DNA of 64,000 nt from Sphingomonas sp. IW22 (GTDB taxonomy: Bacteria; Pseudomonadota; Alphaproteobacteria; Sphingomonadales; Sphingomonadaceae): contig NZ_JBGGWB010000001.1 in assembly GCF_041321155.1 (NCBI RefSeq), positions 1,933,501 through 1,997,500 of the forward strand, read 5' to 3'. Made by a program: the position numbers and the translations under genes. This document shows positions 13,447 through 18,079 of the stretch, piece by piece; within the stretch, counting starts at the first letter, position 1, and each line of letters opens with the position of its first letter. The notes under the pieces are model-generated. The model did no database searches. It had not been told where the DNA came from and was given only the letters and a program-made list of their open reading frames with translations.

Positions 13447-13695
13447 CTAAAGGTCGACTCCGGCGGCAATCGCTTCCAGCTTGCGGATGCGCTCCTTCAG
13501 ATCGGCAATCTCGATCCGCTGGGTGGCCGACGGACCGGGAATGTTGTCGCTGTCCGCGGGTGCGCTGGCGGCGTTCAATTGCTGGCGTTTCAGGGCCAGC
13601 CACCCGCGCCAGGCCACCAGAAGGGCAGCGGTGATCATTGCCAGCGCCGTCAGCGCCGCCGCGGCCATGGACAGATAGAATTGGGGGTCATGCAT
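13447..13695 (-). CDS. Small PspB-like membrane protein, last of the psp array
   Basis: 82 residues: one N-terminal membrane helix (AAAALTALAMITAALLVAW), a basic linker, and a C-terminal helix IADLKERIRKLEAIAAG. It is the most diverged of the small proteins downstream of pspC and ends right after the ERI-type motif. GGGAGA sits eight bases before this ATG. An ATG at 13731, overlapping the preceding stop as TGATG, would add 12 residues and cannot be excluded. Function is unknown; position and layout suggest an envelope-stress role. Confidence 0.72.
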   Translation of the reverse strand: MHDPQFYLSMAAAALTALAMITAALLVAWRGWLALKRQQLNAASAPADSDNIPGPSATQRIEIADLKERIRKLEAIAAGVDL

Positions 13696-13730
13696 CGCTG
13701 CGTCTCCCATCGAAAATTCGGGCGCCAGCA

Positions 13731-13976
13731 TCAGGCGCGGTTGTCGTCGCGCAGCCGGGCGATCTCGCGGTCCAGCCTCACGCTGTCTTCGGTGTCGGTG
13801 ATGACGCGCTCCAGCACGGCCACACGTTCCTTCAGCGTGCGGATCTCCTCGCGCATCCGAACCGAGTCGGGGTGATCGCCGCCGGGGCGTTCGTTCTGCG
13901 CCTTGACCTTGGCCTGGACGATCTTCCCGATCGTTACCAGCGCCACGATCGCCACCACCATCGAAAACGGGTCCAT
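13731..13976 (-). CDS. Small PspB-like membrane protein (psp array member 4)
   Basis: 81 residues: a membrane helix at the N-terminus (DPFSMVVAIVALVTIGKIV), a charged linker, and a coiled-coil tail with LKERVAVLERVITD and RLDREIARLR. Both motifs recur in the other members of this array. GGGAGGG lies four bases before the ATG. It is minus-strand, in series with the others and without internal terminators. No function is known. Confidence 0.75.
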   Translation of the reverse strand: MDPFSMVVAIVALVTIGKIVQAKVKAQNERPGGDHPDSVRMREEIRTLKERVAVLERVITDTEDSVRLDREIARLRDDNRA

Positions 13977-14008
13977 CAATCCCTCCCTAGTCGCCTTTGG
14001 CGTATCGT

Positions 14009-14278
14009 TCAGTTCAGCGGCTGTTGACGCAGCCGTTCAATCTCGTCGGCGACGGCAATGCCTCGGTCGGTGACGATACGCTCCAGCACGCGCACGCGCT
14101 GCTCCAGCCGTTCGACATGCGCGGCATATTGCGCCGCCTTTTCCGCCGTCTGGGCATTCAGCGCCGTCGCCGTCGCTTCCTTGTGCTTAAGCCAACGCTT
14201 GAACATGTCGCTGCCGACGCCCGCGATCACGGGGATGCCCACGACGATCAGGAAGAAGCTGATCATGTTCAGGTCCAT
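14009..14278 (-). CDS. Small PspB-like membrane protein (psp array member 3)
   Basis: 89 residues: helix MISFFLIVVGIPVIAGVG, basic stop-transfer MFKRWLKHKEA, then a coiled coil ending RVRVLERIVTD and ADEIERLRQQ. A strong GGAGG box precedes the ATG. The long upstream extension of this frame (to 14488) crosses the preceding gene and is not real. The architecture is that of PspB: one helix followed by a cytoplasmic coiled coil. Confidence 0.78.
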   Translation of the reverse strand: MDLNMISFFLIVVGIPVIAGVGSDMFKRWLKHKEATATALNAQTAEKAAQYAAHVERLEQRVRVLERIVTDRGIAVADEIERLRQQPLN

Positions 14279-14292
14279 TGCCGATCCTCCGT

Positions 14293-14613
14293 TCAGTTGG
14301 CGCGGCCGCGCAGCTGCTCGATCTCGCGGTCGAGTGCACGAGCGCCATCGGTGACGATCCGCTCGACATTGGCGAGCCGATCCTTGATCGAGCCGAGTTC
14401 GGCGCGAAGCTGCGCGTTTTCCTGGCTCAGCAATTTTATTCGTTCGACCGTTTCGTCGTTGCGGACGGGATAGATGGCCTGGCCCCATGCACCGTCGAGC
14501 GGATAGTCGTTCTTCACGCGCATCCAGGTGGTCAGCACCCAGCCAGCGACACCGATGACGGTCAGCGTCACGATCAGCGGCGCAGATTCCATCAGAAGTG
14601 GGATCGTTTCCAT
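14293..14613 (-). CDS. Small PspB-like membrane protein (psp array member 2)
   Basis: 106 residues: membrane helix APLIVTLTVIGVAGWVLTTWM, then a loop with NDYPLDGAWG, then a coiled coil carrying NVERIVTD and ALDREIEQLRGR. The loop and helix resemble the next upstream member (WIVTTWLRVKHGYP against WVLTTWMRVKNDYP), so these two are the closest pair and look like a duplication. GGAAGGA precedes the ATG. Function unknown. Confidence 0.8.
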   Translation of the reverse strand: METIPLLMESAPLIVTLTVIGVAGWVLTTWMRVKNDYPLDGAWGQAIYPVRNDETVERIKLLSQENAQLRAELGSIKDRLANVERIVTDGARALDREIEQLRGRAN

Positions 14614-14626
14614 ATTCTGTCCTTCC

Positions 14627-14920
14627 TCAGCGCAGCGCGTCGATGTCGCGGTTCAGTCGTTCGGCAGGGTCGGTCGCGATGCGCTCCAGCACGGCGATCC
14701 GTTCCTCCAGCCGACCGATCTGTCCGGTAAGCCGCTCATTTTCCGATGCCAGCAGCGCGATGCGCCGATCAGCGTCGGGGCCGGCGCCCTTGTGTATCGT
14801 TGCGCCATTGTCGTCGGTGATCGGATAGCCATGCTTGACGCGCAGCCATGTCGTGACGATCCAGGCACCCATCGACAGCGCGATGATCGCGATAACGAAA
14901 CCCGGTCCACCCCAGCCCAT
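14627..14920 (-). CDS. Small PspB-like membrane protein (psp array member 1)
   Basis: 97 residues: helix GFVIAIIALSMGAWIVTTWL, short polar loop RVKHGYPITDD, then a coiled coil ending IAVLERIATD and LNRDIDALR. GGGAGGAAG precedes the ATG. It directly follows pspC, with 29 bp between them, so it is almost certainly in the psp transcript. Together with the three downstream relatives it repeats the pspB layout and the C-terminal signature also seen at the end of PspC. Confidence 0.8.
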   Translation of the reverse strand: MGWGGPGFVIAIIALSMGAWIVTTWLRVKHGYPITDDNGATIHKGAGPDADRRIALLASENERLTGQIGRLEERIAVLERIATDPAERLNRDIDALR

Positions 14921-14949
14921 TGTTCTTCCTCCCTTTTATCTACGCGCCG

Positions 14950-15330
14950 TCAGCGAAGCCGGTCGATCTCTTCGGCCAGGCGGTTGTTGCGCCCGACATA
15001 GAAGCTCTCGATTTCAGCCAGGCGCCGGTCGATGTCGCGAAACTTCGAACGGACTTCGGCGGTCGAGCGCTTGGGATTGGAGCGTACGCGCTGCCAGAAC
15101 TTCTCGTCCTCCGCGCTTTCATACAGGCCATAGGGTTTGGCCGGTGCCATCCAGGCGATCATGAAATAGGCGACCAGCGTCCAGGGAAAGCCCCCCAGCA
15201 GGGTCAGCATGGCTGCGCCGACGCGAACCCAGATGACATCGACGCCGGTATAGTCCGCGATACCCGCGCAGACGCCCATCCATTTGCCGTTCTGCTTGTC
15301 GACATATAATTTGGTGCGGCTGGCAGACAT
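14950..15330 (-). CDS. pspC: Phage shock protein PspC
   Basis: 126 residues. The PspC domain is clear: KLYVDKQNGKWMGVCAGIADY, VIWVRVGAAMLTL, then a membrane helix FPWTLVAYFMIAWMA. After it comes a soluble tail with KFRDIDRRLAEIES and RLAEEIDRLR. This tail, absent from minimal PspC proteins, matches the C-terminal signature of the small proteins encoded downstream. PspC is the inner-membrane partner of PspB; in enterobacteria the pair senses envelope stress and draws PspA away from PspF. The ATG at 15330 follows a GAGGAGG box inside the end of pspB. Confidence 0.9.
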   Translation of the reverse strand: MSASRTKLYVDKQNGKWMGVCAGIADYTGVDVIWVRVGAAMLTLLGGFPWTLVAYFMIAWMAPAKPYGLYESAEDEKFWQRVRSNPKRSTAEVRSKFRDIDRRLAEIESFYVGRNNRLAEEIDRLR

Positions 15331-15331
15331 T

Positions 15332-15610
15332 TCAGTTCCTCCTCGAGAAATCATATTGGGACCGCTCGTCCTCACGCACGCGGGGTGCTTCGGGCTGGAA
15401 GTCCGGGTTGTCGGCGGCGACGATCCGTTCGATGGTCTCCAGCCGCTCGTCGAGCCGCCGGGCCATGTGATGTAGTTCGTCGAGCAGCTTCTCGTCCTCG
15501 CCGGTCAGGGTCGGGGACTGTTTCCACTTCGTGATGTAGTGGAGGATGATCCAGGGCATCCCGACGAACAGGATGCCGCAGACCATGATCGGGACAAGCA
15601 CGTCCTCCAT
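15332..15610 (-). CDS. pspB: Phage shock protein PspB
   Basis: 92 residues: N-terminal helix VPIMVCGILFVGMPWIILHYITKW, then LDELHHMARRLDERLETIERIVAAD, the amphipathic coiled coil of PspB. Length and layout match the family. Its stop is one base from the pspC start and its own start is a few bases past pspA, so pspA-pspB-pspC form one tight operon. The ETIERIV sequence is the prototype of the motif repeated in the downstream small proteins. Confidence 0.9.
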   Translation of the reverse strand: MEDVLVPIMVCGILFVGMPWIILHYITKWKQSPTLTGEDEKLLDELHHMARRLDERLETIERIVAADNPDFQPEAPRVREDERSQYDFSRRN

Positions 15611-15614
15611 GGGA

Positions 15615-16280
15615 TCAGCCTTCCTTGTTCAGGCGCGCCTTCAGCGCGGCCAGCTCGGCATCGACCTTTTCCGACGACTTCAGCTCGGCAATCTCTTCCT
15701 CAAGCGTCTTTACGCCGCCCATGCCGGCCGCATCGGCGCGACCCTCTGCCATGTCGACGCGGCGCTCCAGCGTGTCGAACCGCGAAAAGGCGTCGGCCAC
15801 GCGTTCACCGGCATACATTTCGCGCAGGCGATAGCGGTTCTCGGCGCTTTCCAGCCGGGTCGCGATCGAGTTCTGGCGCGAACGTGCTTCGCGCAGCTTG
15901 CTCTGGAGTTTGGCGATATCGGCTTCCGATGCCTTCAGCGCGTCGTCCAGCACGGTGATCTCGGCCTTGAGCTGATCGGCCATGTCAGCGGCCTTCTGGC
16001 GCTCGACCAGCGCGGCCTTGGCGAGATCCTCGCGATCCTTGGACAGCGCCAGTTCGGCCTTTTCGGTCCAGCTGTCCTGCAGCTTTTCCAGCTTGGCGAT
16101 GTGGCGGCGCATTTCCTTCTGATCGGCGATGGTGCGCGCGGCGGATGCGCGAACCTCGACCAGCGTTTCCTCCATCTCGAGGATGATCATGCGGATCATC
16201 TTCGCAGGGTCTTCCGCCTTGTCGAGCAGGTCGGTGACATTGGCGGCGATGATGTCCCGCGTCCTGGAGAAAATACCCAT
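15615..16280 (-). CDS. pspA: Phage shock protein PspA
   Basis: 221 residues, almost entirely coiled coil. MGIFSRTRDIIAANVTDLLD is the N-terminal amphipathic helix that binds stressed membranes, and the rest is the ESCRT-III-like helical hairpin typical of PspA/IM30. In proteobacteria PspA also binds PspF and blocks its ATPase. GAAGGAG precedes the ATG at 16280; an ATG eight residues upstream lies before that box. A strong hairpin with a T-run sits 25-60 bases upstream, between pspA and the preceding gene, so expression depends on read-through or on a promoter not recognised here. Confidence 0.95.
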   Translation of the reverse strand: MGIFSRTRDIIAANVTDLLDKAEDPAKMIRMIILEMEETLVEVRASAARTIADQKEMRRHIAKLEKLQDSWTEKAELALSKDREDLAKAALVERQKAADMADQLKAEITVLDDALKASEADIAKLQSKLREARSRQNSIATRLESAENRYRLREMYAGERVADAFSRFDTLERRVDMAEGRADAAGMGGVKTLEEEIAELKSSEKVDAELAALKARLNKEG

Positions 16281-16352: not shown

Positions 16353-16859
16353 TCAGCCGATGGGCTGTCCGGCGGGAACTTCGGCATGAAGCTGACGCAC
16401 GCTCGCGGCGAGGTCCAGCGACTGGCGACGGACACTGGCGCGGTTCCGGTTCGCCTGCGGCGTCGCAAAGAAGATTTCGACCGGGATCATGCGAACCCGA
16501 CCGCGCATCTCGGCGGGCAGACGCGGGAAAGCCGTGTGGTTGACCGCGCGCAGCGCTTCGTCGTCCAGCACGCGATTGCCGGTTGGCACATCAAGCGACG
16601 TGGCAAGCAACTGGCCTTCGCCATCGAAATGGGCGCCGACGATCGCGGCCTTCTGCATCCGTACCGCAACCGGGACCGCGGGGGATGGCCGGATCTGTTC
16701 GTGCAGCGATTTGGTCACGGCGCGCATCCATTGATGCCGGTCGAGTTCGCCCGCGCGCGCCGGCGCGGCGGCAAGGCCCAGGCACAACGTGCTCGCGGCA
16801 ACGGCGCCCAGCAGTGTGACAAGCGGTTGACGAACATCGTGGCGGGCCTTCCTGAGCAT
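16353..16859 (-). CDS. Secreted TonB C-terminal-domain protein under the psp sigma-54 promoter
   Basis: 168 residues. It starts with a long Sec signal peptide (LVTLLGAVAASTLCLGL, cleavage near APARA). Around residues 75-135 is a TonB-C-like fold: AAIVGAHFDGEGQLLATSLDVPTGNRVLDDEAL, here split as DGEGQLL, SLDVPTG, LDDEALRAV, then FPRLPAEMRGR and PVEIFF. It lacks the N-terminal anchor and proline arm of true TonB, so it is probably a periplasmic protein rather than an energy transducer. GGGAGA precedes the ATG. It is the first gene downstream of the sigma-54 promoter and is separated from pspA by the hairpin. Confidence 0.78.
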   Translation of the reverse strand: MLRKARHDVRQPLVTLLGAVAASTLCLGLAAAPARAGELDRHQWMRAVTKSLHEQIRPSPAVPVAVRMQKAAIVGAHFDGEGQLLATSLDVPTGNRVLDDEALRAVNHTAFPRLPAEMRGRVRMIPVEIFFATPQANRNRASVRRQSLDLAASVRQLHAEVPAGQPIG

Positions 16860-16921: not shown

Positions 16922-16938
16922 TGCACAGGGCGTGCCAG
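16922..16938 (-). promoter_or_regulatory. Sigma-54 (-24/-12) promoter of the psp operon
   Basis: On the minus strand the sequence reads CTGGCACGccctGTGCA, close to the sigma-54 consensus TGGCACG-N4-TTGC(A/T). It lies about 63 bases before the start of the TonB-C gene and reads towards pspA. The divergent gene is PspF, the enhancer-binding activator for exactly this kind of promoter. Confidence 0.82.
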
Positions 16939-17012
16939 TTTGACGTAAGCCTCTCCGCAAAGGCGAAGCCTGACAATTTGTTCATGACGATGGGATAGTG
17001 GTTGCCAACACT

Positions 17013-17027
17013 TGGCGGAATCCGCCA
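17013..17027. promoter_or_regulatory. Palindrome TGGCGGAATCCGCCA, candidate PspF binding site
   Basis: A perfect 7-1-7 palindrome lies about 90-100 bases upstream of the expected sigma-54 start site and just before the pspF start. Enhancer-binding proteins usually bind at that distance. It could serve both activation of the psp operon and autoregulation of pspF. Binding is inferred from position only. Confidence 0.45.
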
Positions 17028-17038
17028 CAATCGCGGAC

Positions 17039-18079
17039 ATGGAGCGAACTGCACCCGTAATCGGTCAATCCACCGCGTTTCTGGACGCATTGGAGCGTGC
17101 CAGCCGCGCCGCGCCGCTGGACCGCCCCGTGCTGGTGATCGGAGAGCGGGGAACCGGTAAGGAGCTGGTGGCCGAGCGTCTGCACCGTCTGAGCGGCCGA
17201 TGGGACCAGCCGCTGGTCGTGATGAATTGCGCTGCACTGCCTGAAACGCTGATCGAAGCTGAATTGTTCGGGCACGAGGCAGGTGCATTTACCGGCGCGC
17301 AAAAGGGGCGTGCGGGCCGCTTCGAGGAAGCGCATGGCGGCACATTGTTTCTCGATGAACTCGGCACGCTTTCGATGGCCGCGCAGGATCGGCTGTTGCG
17401 CGCGGTCGAATATGGCGAGATCACGCGCATCGGGTCTTCGCGCCCGTTGCGGGTCGATGTTCGGATCGTCGCGGCGACGAACGAACATCTGCCCGACCGC
17501 GTCGCCAGGGGCAGTTTTCGCGCTGACCTGCTCGATCGGCTATGTTTCGAGGTGGTAACGCTGCCGCCGCTTCGTGCACGCAGCGGCGACATCATGGTGC
17601 TGGCCGATCATTTCGGGCGGCGCATGGCATCCGAACTGGGATGGGACCGCTGGCCCGGCTTCGGTCCGGAAGCGATCGAGATGCTGGAGACGCATCGCTG
17701 GCCGGGCAATGTGCGTGAGCTTCGCAACGTGGTCGAGCGGGCGGTCTATCGCTGGGAACGCGAAGGACCGGTGGACATGATCCAGATCGATCCGTTTGAT
17801 TCTCCATGGCGTCCGGGCGGCAGCGGCGGTTTCGTCGAACCGGCGGGCGAGCTCAAAGGCGGGGCACCGACGACGGCGGAGGCTGCGCCCGTCGCGGCAC
17901 CCGCCGAACCGGCGATCGATGGGGATTTCCGCACCCGCGTCGCGACCTATGAACGCCGTCTGCTGACGCGCGCCATGGCCGAACACCGTTATAATCAGCG
18001 TGCAACCGCCGAGGCGTTGGGCCTGACATATGACCAGTTGCGGCACGCATTGAGAAAGCACGGGCTGCTTTCGGGTTAG
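17039..18079 (+). CDS. pspF: Psp operon transcriptional activator PspF
   Basis: 346 residues with no N-terminal receiver domain, as in PspF. The AAA+ domain has Walker A GERGTGKE, the sigma-54-contacting GAFTGA loop, Walker B GGTLFLDELGTL, and HRWPGNVRELRNVVERAVYRW. After an Ala/Pro/Gly linker (about residues 255-305) comes a Fis-type helix-turn-helix, with NQRATAEALGLTYDQLR. It activates sigma-54 RNA polymerase by ATP hydrolysis and is inhibited by PspA. It is divergent from the psp operon. The ATG was preferred to a TTG nine codons upstream, which overlaps the palindrome. Confidence 0.94.
   Translation: MERTAPVIGQSTAFLDALERASRAAPLDRPVLVIGERGTGKELVAERLHRLSGRWDQPLVVMNCAALPETLIEAELFGHEAGAFTGAQKGRAGRFEEAHGGTLFLDELGTLSMAAQDRLLRAVEYGEITRIGSSRPLRVDVRIVAATNEHLPDRVARGSFRADLLDRLCFEVVTLPPLRARSGDIMVLADHFGRRMASELGWDRWPGFGPEAIEMLETHRWPGNVRELRNVVERAVYRWEREGPVDMIQIDPFDSPWRPGGSGGFVEPAGELKGGAPTTAEAAPVAAPAEPAIDGDFRTRVATYERRLLTRAMAEHRYNQRATAEALGLTYDQLRHALRKHGLLSG

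Follow-up and report, generated by a model that had tools for sequence, protein, structure and literature searches.

An ordered array of five genes for small, predicted single-pass membrane proteins behind pspC in a sphingomonad psp operon

The window analyzed here comprises 64,000 nucleotides (nt) of Sphingomonas sp. IW22 (NZ_JBGGWB010000001.1, positions 1,933,501-1,997,500; GCF_041321155.1) and contains a phage shock protein (psp) operon in which five genes for small proteins, here called X1 to X5, follow pspC. Positions 13447-16280 of the minus strand carry, in this order, pspA, pspB, pspC, X1, X2, X3, X4 and X5 (Table 1), and the first three are ordinary psp genes by model score. An earlier sequence-only reading of the window had pointed out five small same-strand genes of 81-106 residues after pspA-pspB-pspC; they were located as proteins of 97, 106, 89, 81 and 82 amino acids (aa), the length of X5 agreeing with database entry P0122, and the motifs quoted for X1-X4, for PspB (ETIERIV) and for X5 (KLEAIAAG) all match letter for letter. 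The interval assigned to the array, 13447..15330, holds X1-X5 but also includes pspC. The PspB-like architecture ascribed to the five was likewise recovered: each has a single hydrophobic stretch in its first part (hydropathy peaks 1.9-2.4), giving one N-terminal helix, and a coiled coil, which was assigned by eye. Among the array proteins of the sample described below, 286 of the 289 with a called helix have more lysine and arginine after the helix than before it and none shows the reverse (a further 7 had no helix called), and an N-out, C-in topology is predicted for X1-X5.

Table 1. Features of the psp locus in the window. Coordinates are window positions; ORF, open reading frame; TM, transmembrane.
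Feature	Position	Strand	Evidence and remarks
pspF-like sigma-54 activator, divergent	17012..18079	+	Sigma54_activat E 5e-61; Fis-type HTH_8 E 1.6e-6
Sigma-54 (-24/-12) promoter-like site TGGCACGCCCTGTGCA	16922..16937	-	1 mismatch to consensus
168-aa ORF between promoter and pspA	16353..16859	-	signal-peptide-like start (by eye); PF13103 (TonB C-terminal) E 0.001, below cut-off
pspA	15615..16280	-	PF04012 E 3e-36
pspB	15332..15610	-	PF06667 E 7e-26; TIGR02976 above cut-off
pspC, shared motif in C-terminal tail	14950..15330	-	TIGR02978 E 1e-35, 121.9 bits, above cut-off; alignment
X1, 97 aa; one TM helix, coiled coil, tail ERIATD..RDIDALR	14627..14920	-	
X2, 106 aa; X1-like architecture, conserved TTWLRxKxGYPL segment, tail ERIVTD..REIEQLR	14293..14613	-	
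X3, 89 aa; nearest to PspB; tail ERIVTD..DEIERLR	14009..14278	-	TIGR02976 E 1e-4, below cut-off; hhalign 96.5% to PspB
X4, 81 aa; tail ERVITD..REIARLR	13731..13976	-	ORF list start one codon earlier, at TTG
X5, 82 aa, last gene; tail KLEAIAAGVDL without LR ending	13447..13695	-	94 aa if ATG at 13731 used

The relatedness of the five proteins was measured by comparing each pairwise alignment score with those of 500 shuffles and counting the shuffles that reached it. For all six pairs among X1-X4 no shuffle of the 500 did so (z 6.4-24.9), and comparison of their family alignments as profiles gave probabilities of 98.6-99.9% within this group (profile probabilities here and below are from single comparisons). 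X1-X4 have a common end in which the coiled coil runs into L-E-R-I-V-T-D and then L-x-x-E-I-x-x-L-R, and by these comparisons they are homologous to each other. X5 reached its scores against X1, X2, X3 and X4 in competition with 1, 11, 24 and 1 of 500 shuffles (z 2.2-4.3); the corresponding profile probabilities were 85, 19, 82 and 92%, with the matches to X1, X3 and X4 covering 21-47 columns. The C-terminus of X5 is nearly always LEAIA(A/S)G(V/I)(D/E)L, and as judged from its alignments X5 is a distant, shortened and highly conserved relative of the other four.

When the same pairwise test was applied to PspB, 5, 49, 2, 1 and 64 of 500 shuffles reached the observed score for X1, X2, X3, X4 and X5, and with PspC the counts were 11, 0, 0, 4 and 60; by the pairwise shuffle counts, support for the relatedness of X5 and for an X2-PspB link ranges from weak to non-significant. 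Profile comparison with the PspB of other families gave 96.5% for X3 (62 columns including the TM helix), 91.8% for X4 and 90.9% for X1, and with the PspC of other families 87.8, 54.3, 45.7, 39.7 and 0.8% for X1, X2, X4, X3 and X5, respectively. For X1-X4 none of 40 column-shuffled controls reached the observed score. A profile built from X1-X4 only (26 sequences), when run against 289 genomes of the class, retrieved six Pfam-confirmed PspB proteins and one PspC, the latter matched in its tail. X2 and X3 also match the PspC model TIGR02978 directly, at positions 74-121 (E 0.001) and 78-121 (E 0.0018) of 121, both below cut-off; X1, X4 and X5 gave no direct match to this model, and none of the five matches the PspC domain PF04024. 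The PspC encoded in the window terminates in ..IESFYVGRNNRLAEEIDRLR, and in alignment the sphingomonad PspC end, RLADIE-x-FYTSRNTRLADEIDSLR, is the same terminal element as that of X1-X4. Because profile comparison of PspB with PspC from the same families gave only 19.7%, the link between these two rests more on the shuffle test and on a cross-match of the window PspB to the NCBIfam PspC model (E 1.8e-4). A search for a solved PspB structure returned a designed coiled coil as its sole match (E 0.26).

On this sequence evidence X1-X4 appear to have more distant homologs in PspB and in the end of PspC (C-terminal tail, PspC model positions of about 74-121), and the ERIVTD...EI..LR element belongs to the PspC tail as much as to PspB. 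The sequence-only reading had set the motif beside that of PspB, but the element is equally the C-terminal tail of PspC, including that of the window. Its proposal of a duplicated PspB architecture holds for the mutual homology of X1-X4, three of which are clearly related to PspB, but not for X5, which has no PspB profile similarity. X1-X4 resemble PspB (PF06667, TIGR02976) in being small, in having one N-terminal helix and a coiled coil with RLxxRxxxLERI, and in lying in the same operon; they differ in an extra terminal stretch, T(D/S) followed by E-I-x-x-L-R, in place of the PDWR-type end of PspB. They share their terminal element with the tail of sphingomonad PspC, whereas PF04024 is missing from the X proteins and a single membrane helix precedes the tail.

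The sequence-only reading also placed the array in a sigma-54 operon, and the divergent PspF-like activator together with the minus-strand promoter-like site (Table 1) agrees with this. Scored against the sigma-54 consensus, this is the sole one-mismatch site of the whole window. Sigma-54-like sites as such are not enriched in the window (22 matches at two or fewer mismatches against 32 expected), so the case rests on the position of the site and its conservation: in 79 of 80 named relatives the 700 nt upstream of pspA contain a site matching at 10 or more of 11 positions, compared to 1 of 80 in the reverse-strand control. The named loci are the best 80 of 359; as X2 served to select them, counts made on them favor arrays that contain X2. 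In all 80, pspB-pspC lies upstream of the array, and carriers among these best 80 contigs include Sphingomonas, Sphingobium, Novosphingobium, Sphingopyxis, Sphingorhabdus, Stakelama, Hephaestia, Parasphingopyxis and Chakrabartia. The only minus-strand terminator-like hairpin (16341-16313) lies upstream of pspA, and no such minus-strand site was found inside the window's array. Neighboring array genes are closely packed, with 83 of 236 pairs overlapping and 131 spaced by 0-40 nt (214/236 together). Membership of X1-X5 in the PspF/sigma-54 psp operon is supported by gene order, activator and conserved site. The gap between the site and pspA is occupied by the 168-aa ORF and then the hairpin; of 9 relatives read, 8 have in its place a much shorter hydrophobic ORF, about 35-58 residues long and with A as its last residue.

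The spread of the array was determined from an even sample of the window's family as defined by GTDB and from other families. A search of the taxonomic order found 134 of 147 genomes PspB-positive; 120 of the 134 loci were laid out and 13 not fetched, the window genome being additional, and the 120 comprise 59 loci from the window's family (24 genera) and 61 others. With array genes counted by simple ORF chaining and classes labelled by similarity to the window proteins, the array was present at all 59 PspB-positive family loci, with two genes at 1 locus, three at 5, four at 14, five at 20, six at 15 and seven at 4 (one array position of L098 was left unlabelled). The search that the sequence-only reading had called for found arrays at all of these family loci, and confinement to this strain was rejected. 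X5 is the last gene wherever it was labelled (53/53 in the 59 family loci and 78/78 in the named loci). In a wider sample the X2 profile matched 134 of 149 family genomes, a figure that should not be read as the number of X2 genes because the profile also matches other array members weakly. The 17 family genomes without an X2-profile match (15) or PspB (2) include 9 in which PspA is also absent and 8 that have PspA; seven of these 8 carry 0-3 array genes, while in G503 PspA and PspB lie at a contig end and the array was not judged. At E ≤ 0.001, database relatives number 6367 for X3 and 3518 for X5. Most of the 120 listed X3 relatives are unnamed; one is annotated as phage shock protein B, and the other names include hypothetical, Gam, LytS and PilA. 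The names Gam, LytS/YehU histidine kinase, PilA and negative regulator of replication initiation look like annotation errors.

The array slots are old. A tree of 296 array proteins gave near-pure groups by class, with 15 label changes against about 173 when shuffled, although the labels derive from similarity to the window proteins and are thus not fully independent of the tree. Class purity was 53/54 for X2 (side of 54), 54/54 for X5, 50/51 for X4 (side of 59), 80/90 for X3 (side of 81) and 39/47 for X1 (side of 40). No cherry among these 296 proteins joined two genes of one genome. Since the slots are orthologous groups without within-genome sister pairs, X1-X5 are not fresh duplications; recent tandem duplication was rejected, and the repeated duplication envisaged by the sequence-only reading fails as a recent event. 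The ratio of nonsynonymous to synonymous substitution rates (dN/dS) was 0 to 0.58 over 8 genome pairs, in which genes were paired off starting at the array end and only as far as the first disagreement in label; one gene comparison, between identical sequences, was undefined. By tree and dN/dS, the slots represent orthologous groups of long standing that evolve under purifying selection.

Genes behind the array recur as well. At 13 of the 120 laid-out loci (L093 7515-7688, L092 7174-7347 and 11 others) a hydrophobic protein of 56-60 aa with a ..TRPGG.. end directly follows X5, and the one such protein tested had no Pfam match. Many loci carry a gene of about 135 codons after the array, which is SufE by Pfam in the single locus checked (L136).

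Outside the family, no class-wide or phylum-wide array was found in the genomes sampled, only single or paired relatives. Of the 61 laid-out loci from other families, 9 (all in family f8) have a single X-like gene, one (f5) a second PspB proper, and 51 neither. The X1-X4 profile, with up to 18 candidates scored per genome, matched in 19 of the 289 class genomes, 4 of them in the window's family (its own genome included). The 15 others are accounted for by the six PspB and one PspC noted above, one PspB-like protein without a Pfam match (L158), one X-like gene pair (G327, L156) and, by eye, six long or chance coiled-coil frames. In the phylum, 36 of 299 genomes had matches, 13 of the family and 23 others; from the latter, 11 stretches of 9 genomes were read, G327 and G410 had been read earlier, and 12 genomes were left out. 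Each of the 11 stretches contains one X-like gene or two, and pspA, pspB and pspC gave no match there. Ten loci of other phylum families (L276-L279, L281-L285, L295) encode X3/X4-like single-pass proteins with no pspA, pspB or pspC match within 9-10 kb, and their neighbors vary, the few recurrent ones (by eye) appearing at two loci each. An X-like gene pair near coaBC/dut-like genes (by eye) occurs in family f153 at L156 1246-1728 and L280 4371-4865; G327 has a normal pspFABC elsewhere in the genome, away from its pair. L287 4228-4617 (G030), also away from psp, joins an X1-type tail to a cysteine-bearing front that by eye does not look membrane-bound.

Family f8 shows the PspC tail on a separate protein. 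In this family, which belongs to the same taxonomic order, 11 of 21 loci carry a second, tail-less PspC of 73-84 residues behind the normal pspC, and 9 of 21 then carry a single-pass protein bearing a PspC-type tail. Split-PspC loci of f8 are L033, L036-L038, L052, L060, L061, L123 and L142; a further gene there is an L,D-transpeptidase (YkuD) by Pfam in L033 and looks similar by eye elsewhere. These results bear on the possibility that the X proteins are generic single-pass coiled-coil proteins which entered the operon by chance, resemble PspB and PspC by convergence and serve some other envelope role. Their sub-threshold Pfam and NCBIfam scores and the relatives in psp-less stretches of other families would fit such an origin. 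It is nevertheless the least probable of the explanations considered here: X1-X4 outscore column-shuffled controls, their profile pulls PspB and PspC out of whole genomes, the array sits in the psp operon at every one of the 59 family loci, and a split PspC with the tail on a protein of its own occurs in f8.

In E. coli, a PspC fragment of residues 69-119 makes contact with PspA and switches on psp when PspB is expressed alongside it; a putative leucine zipper at 77-98 is needed, and leucine-zipper mutants lose the PspA contact (available portions of PMC3068692). The same source treats the 69-119 part as periplasmic, with dual topology possible, and PMC5596341 has the PspC C-terminal domain binding PspA in the on state. 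The tail region of X1-X4 (about 74-121 of the PspC model) overlaps this 69-119 part linked to PspA contact in E. coli. We lean toward the view that X1-X5 are an expanded PspBC-type membrane module that would form an enlarged complex docking PspA, a function inferred from sequence. The helices of the X proteins would be inserted in the inner membrane next to PspB and PspC, with tails that would either pair among themselves or present several PspC-like docking sites to PspA. Under envelope stress the enlarged complex would capture PspA, so that PspF is freed and PspA gathers at the membrane. The differing membrane and linker parts may allow different members to read different membrane states, and X5, which is last and lacks the terminal half of the tail, may be a fixed structural partner rather than a docking tail. 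A bolder version, which we regard as tentative and rather doubtful, is that sphingomonads turned the PspB-PspC switch into a combinatorial sensor in which the PspA-capturing tail of PspC is spread over several old, specialized single-pass proteins, the almost invariant X5 acts as a cap, PspA is recruited in an insult-specific manner and PspB has become dispensable.

Several points weigh against an enlarged PspA-docking complex. X1-X5 all score below the curated PspB and PspC cut-offs; X3 comes nearest, with 15.3 bits for PF06667 (cut-off 25.6) and 22.6 bits for TIGR02976 (cut-off 51.7), and X1, X2, X4 and X5 match neither model at E ≤ 1. Coiled coils inflate weak similarity, which is a caveat on all comparisons of the X proteins. 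The profile probability to PspB is 53.8% for X2 and 1.6% for X5; for the latter the best column shuffle (19.4) exceeds the observed score (14.9), and X5 was rejected as an ordinary PspB on these two results. Profile similarity among the small proteins, on which the sequence-only reading depended, is present in X1-X4, but X5 has none to PspB. E. coli PspB was not seen to contact PspA in the parts consulted of PMC3068692. Since lone or paired relatives occur in stretches without psp genes, the tail alone is no proof of a Psp role. Nor is the full array required for a psp operon, since no array gene was found in G471 and one each in G443 and G458 (X-like) and in G487 and G520 (X5 only). Our literature search found no interaction, expression or phenotype reports on X1-X5.

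An alternative is that the X proteins are PspB-type adaptors which compete with PspB for PspC, each bringing its own signal and acting one at a time. X3 resembles PspB most closely, along the greater part of its length, and E. coli PspB binds ArcB and takes a signal from it (PMC2764110, in part). Two genomes also have psp operons without pspB (loci L286 and L294): G053 retains X3 and X4, its PspC being without the tail as well, and G146 retains two X3 and X4. We consider such adaptors unlikely, as several old classes kept together in one operon fit co-assembly as well as competition. The resemblance of the X tails to the PspC part linked to PspA contact could also indicate negative feedback or buffering, in which titration of PspA or PspC by the tails would bring the response back down with no sensing. 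The X genes lie behind the sigma-54 site and so would be expressed mainly after induction, which counts for this scheme; for mere titration, however, the X classes would not need membrane and linker parts that are conserved and distinct, and we judge it distinctly improbable.

Extra PspB genes in psp operons are already known. The consulted text of PMC11237479 describes psp operon variants including PspB duplicates and PspC fused to a divergent PspB, giving the duplicates one clause and one accession (AOL22920.1). These variants resemble the present case in having extra PspB genes in the operon, and PspB-like segments at PspC ends were recognized there; the size, order and spread of the array are not in that text and may stand in tables or web pages. 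No word beginning with "sphingo" occurs in the text examined of PMC11237479 or of PMC9239133, which counts Psp domains, and passages of sphingomonad papers mentioning phage shock proteins contain nothing on the array. In a literature search that left subscription papers mostly outside, no description of the ordered array, the shared PspC tail or its spread was found. The sequence-only reading knew of no account of such an array, and this stands for those three features but not for PspB duplicates; the ordered array within the psp operon, the shared PspC tail and the spread are what appears new. The E. coli proteins PspD and PspG are both small membrane proteins. They are further members of the PspF regulon (PMC9239133, PMC3068692, both in part), as X1-X5 lie in a PspF/sigma-54 operon, but neither family is among the Pfam/NCBIfam matches of X1-X5 at E ≤ 1, and the identification of X1-X5 with PspD or PspG was rejected.

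The way in which PspB and PspC detect membrane damage and signal it to PspA is still debated. The natural tail variants across the family, together with genomes that naturally lack pspB, the PspC tail or single members, are a ready set of parts for testing the role of the tail. Reading the array as an expanded PspBC-type module would also give a likely role to many relatives, which among the listed named ones are mostly called hypothetical or bear improbable names. Taken together, the data suggest a stress switch rebuilt from many parts instead of two.

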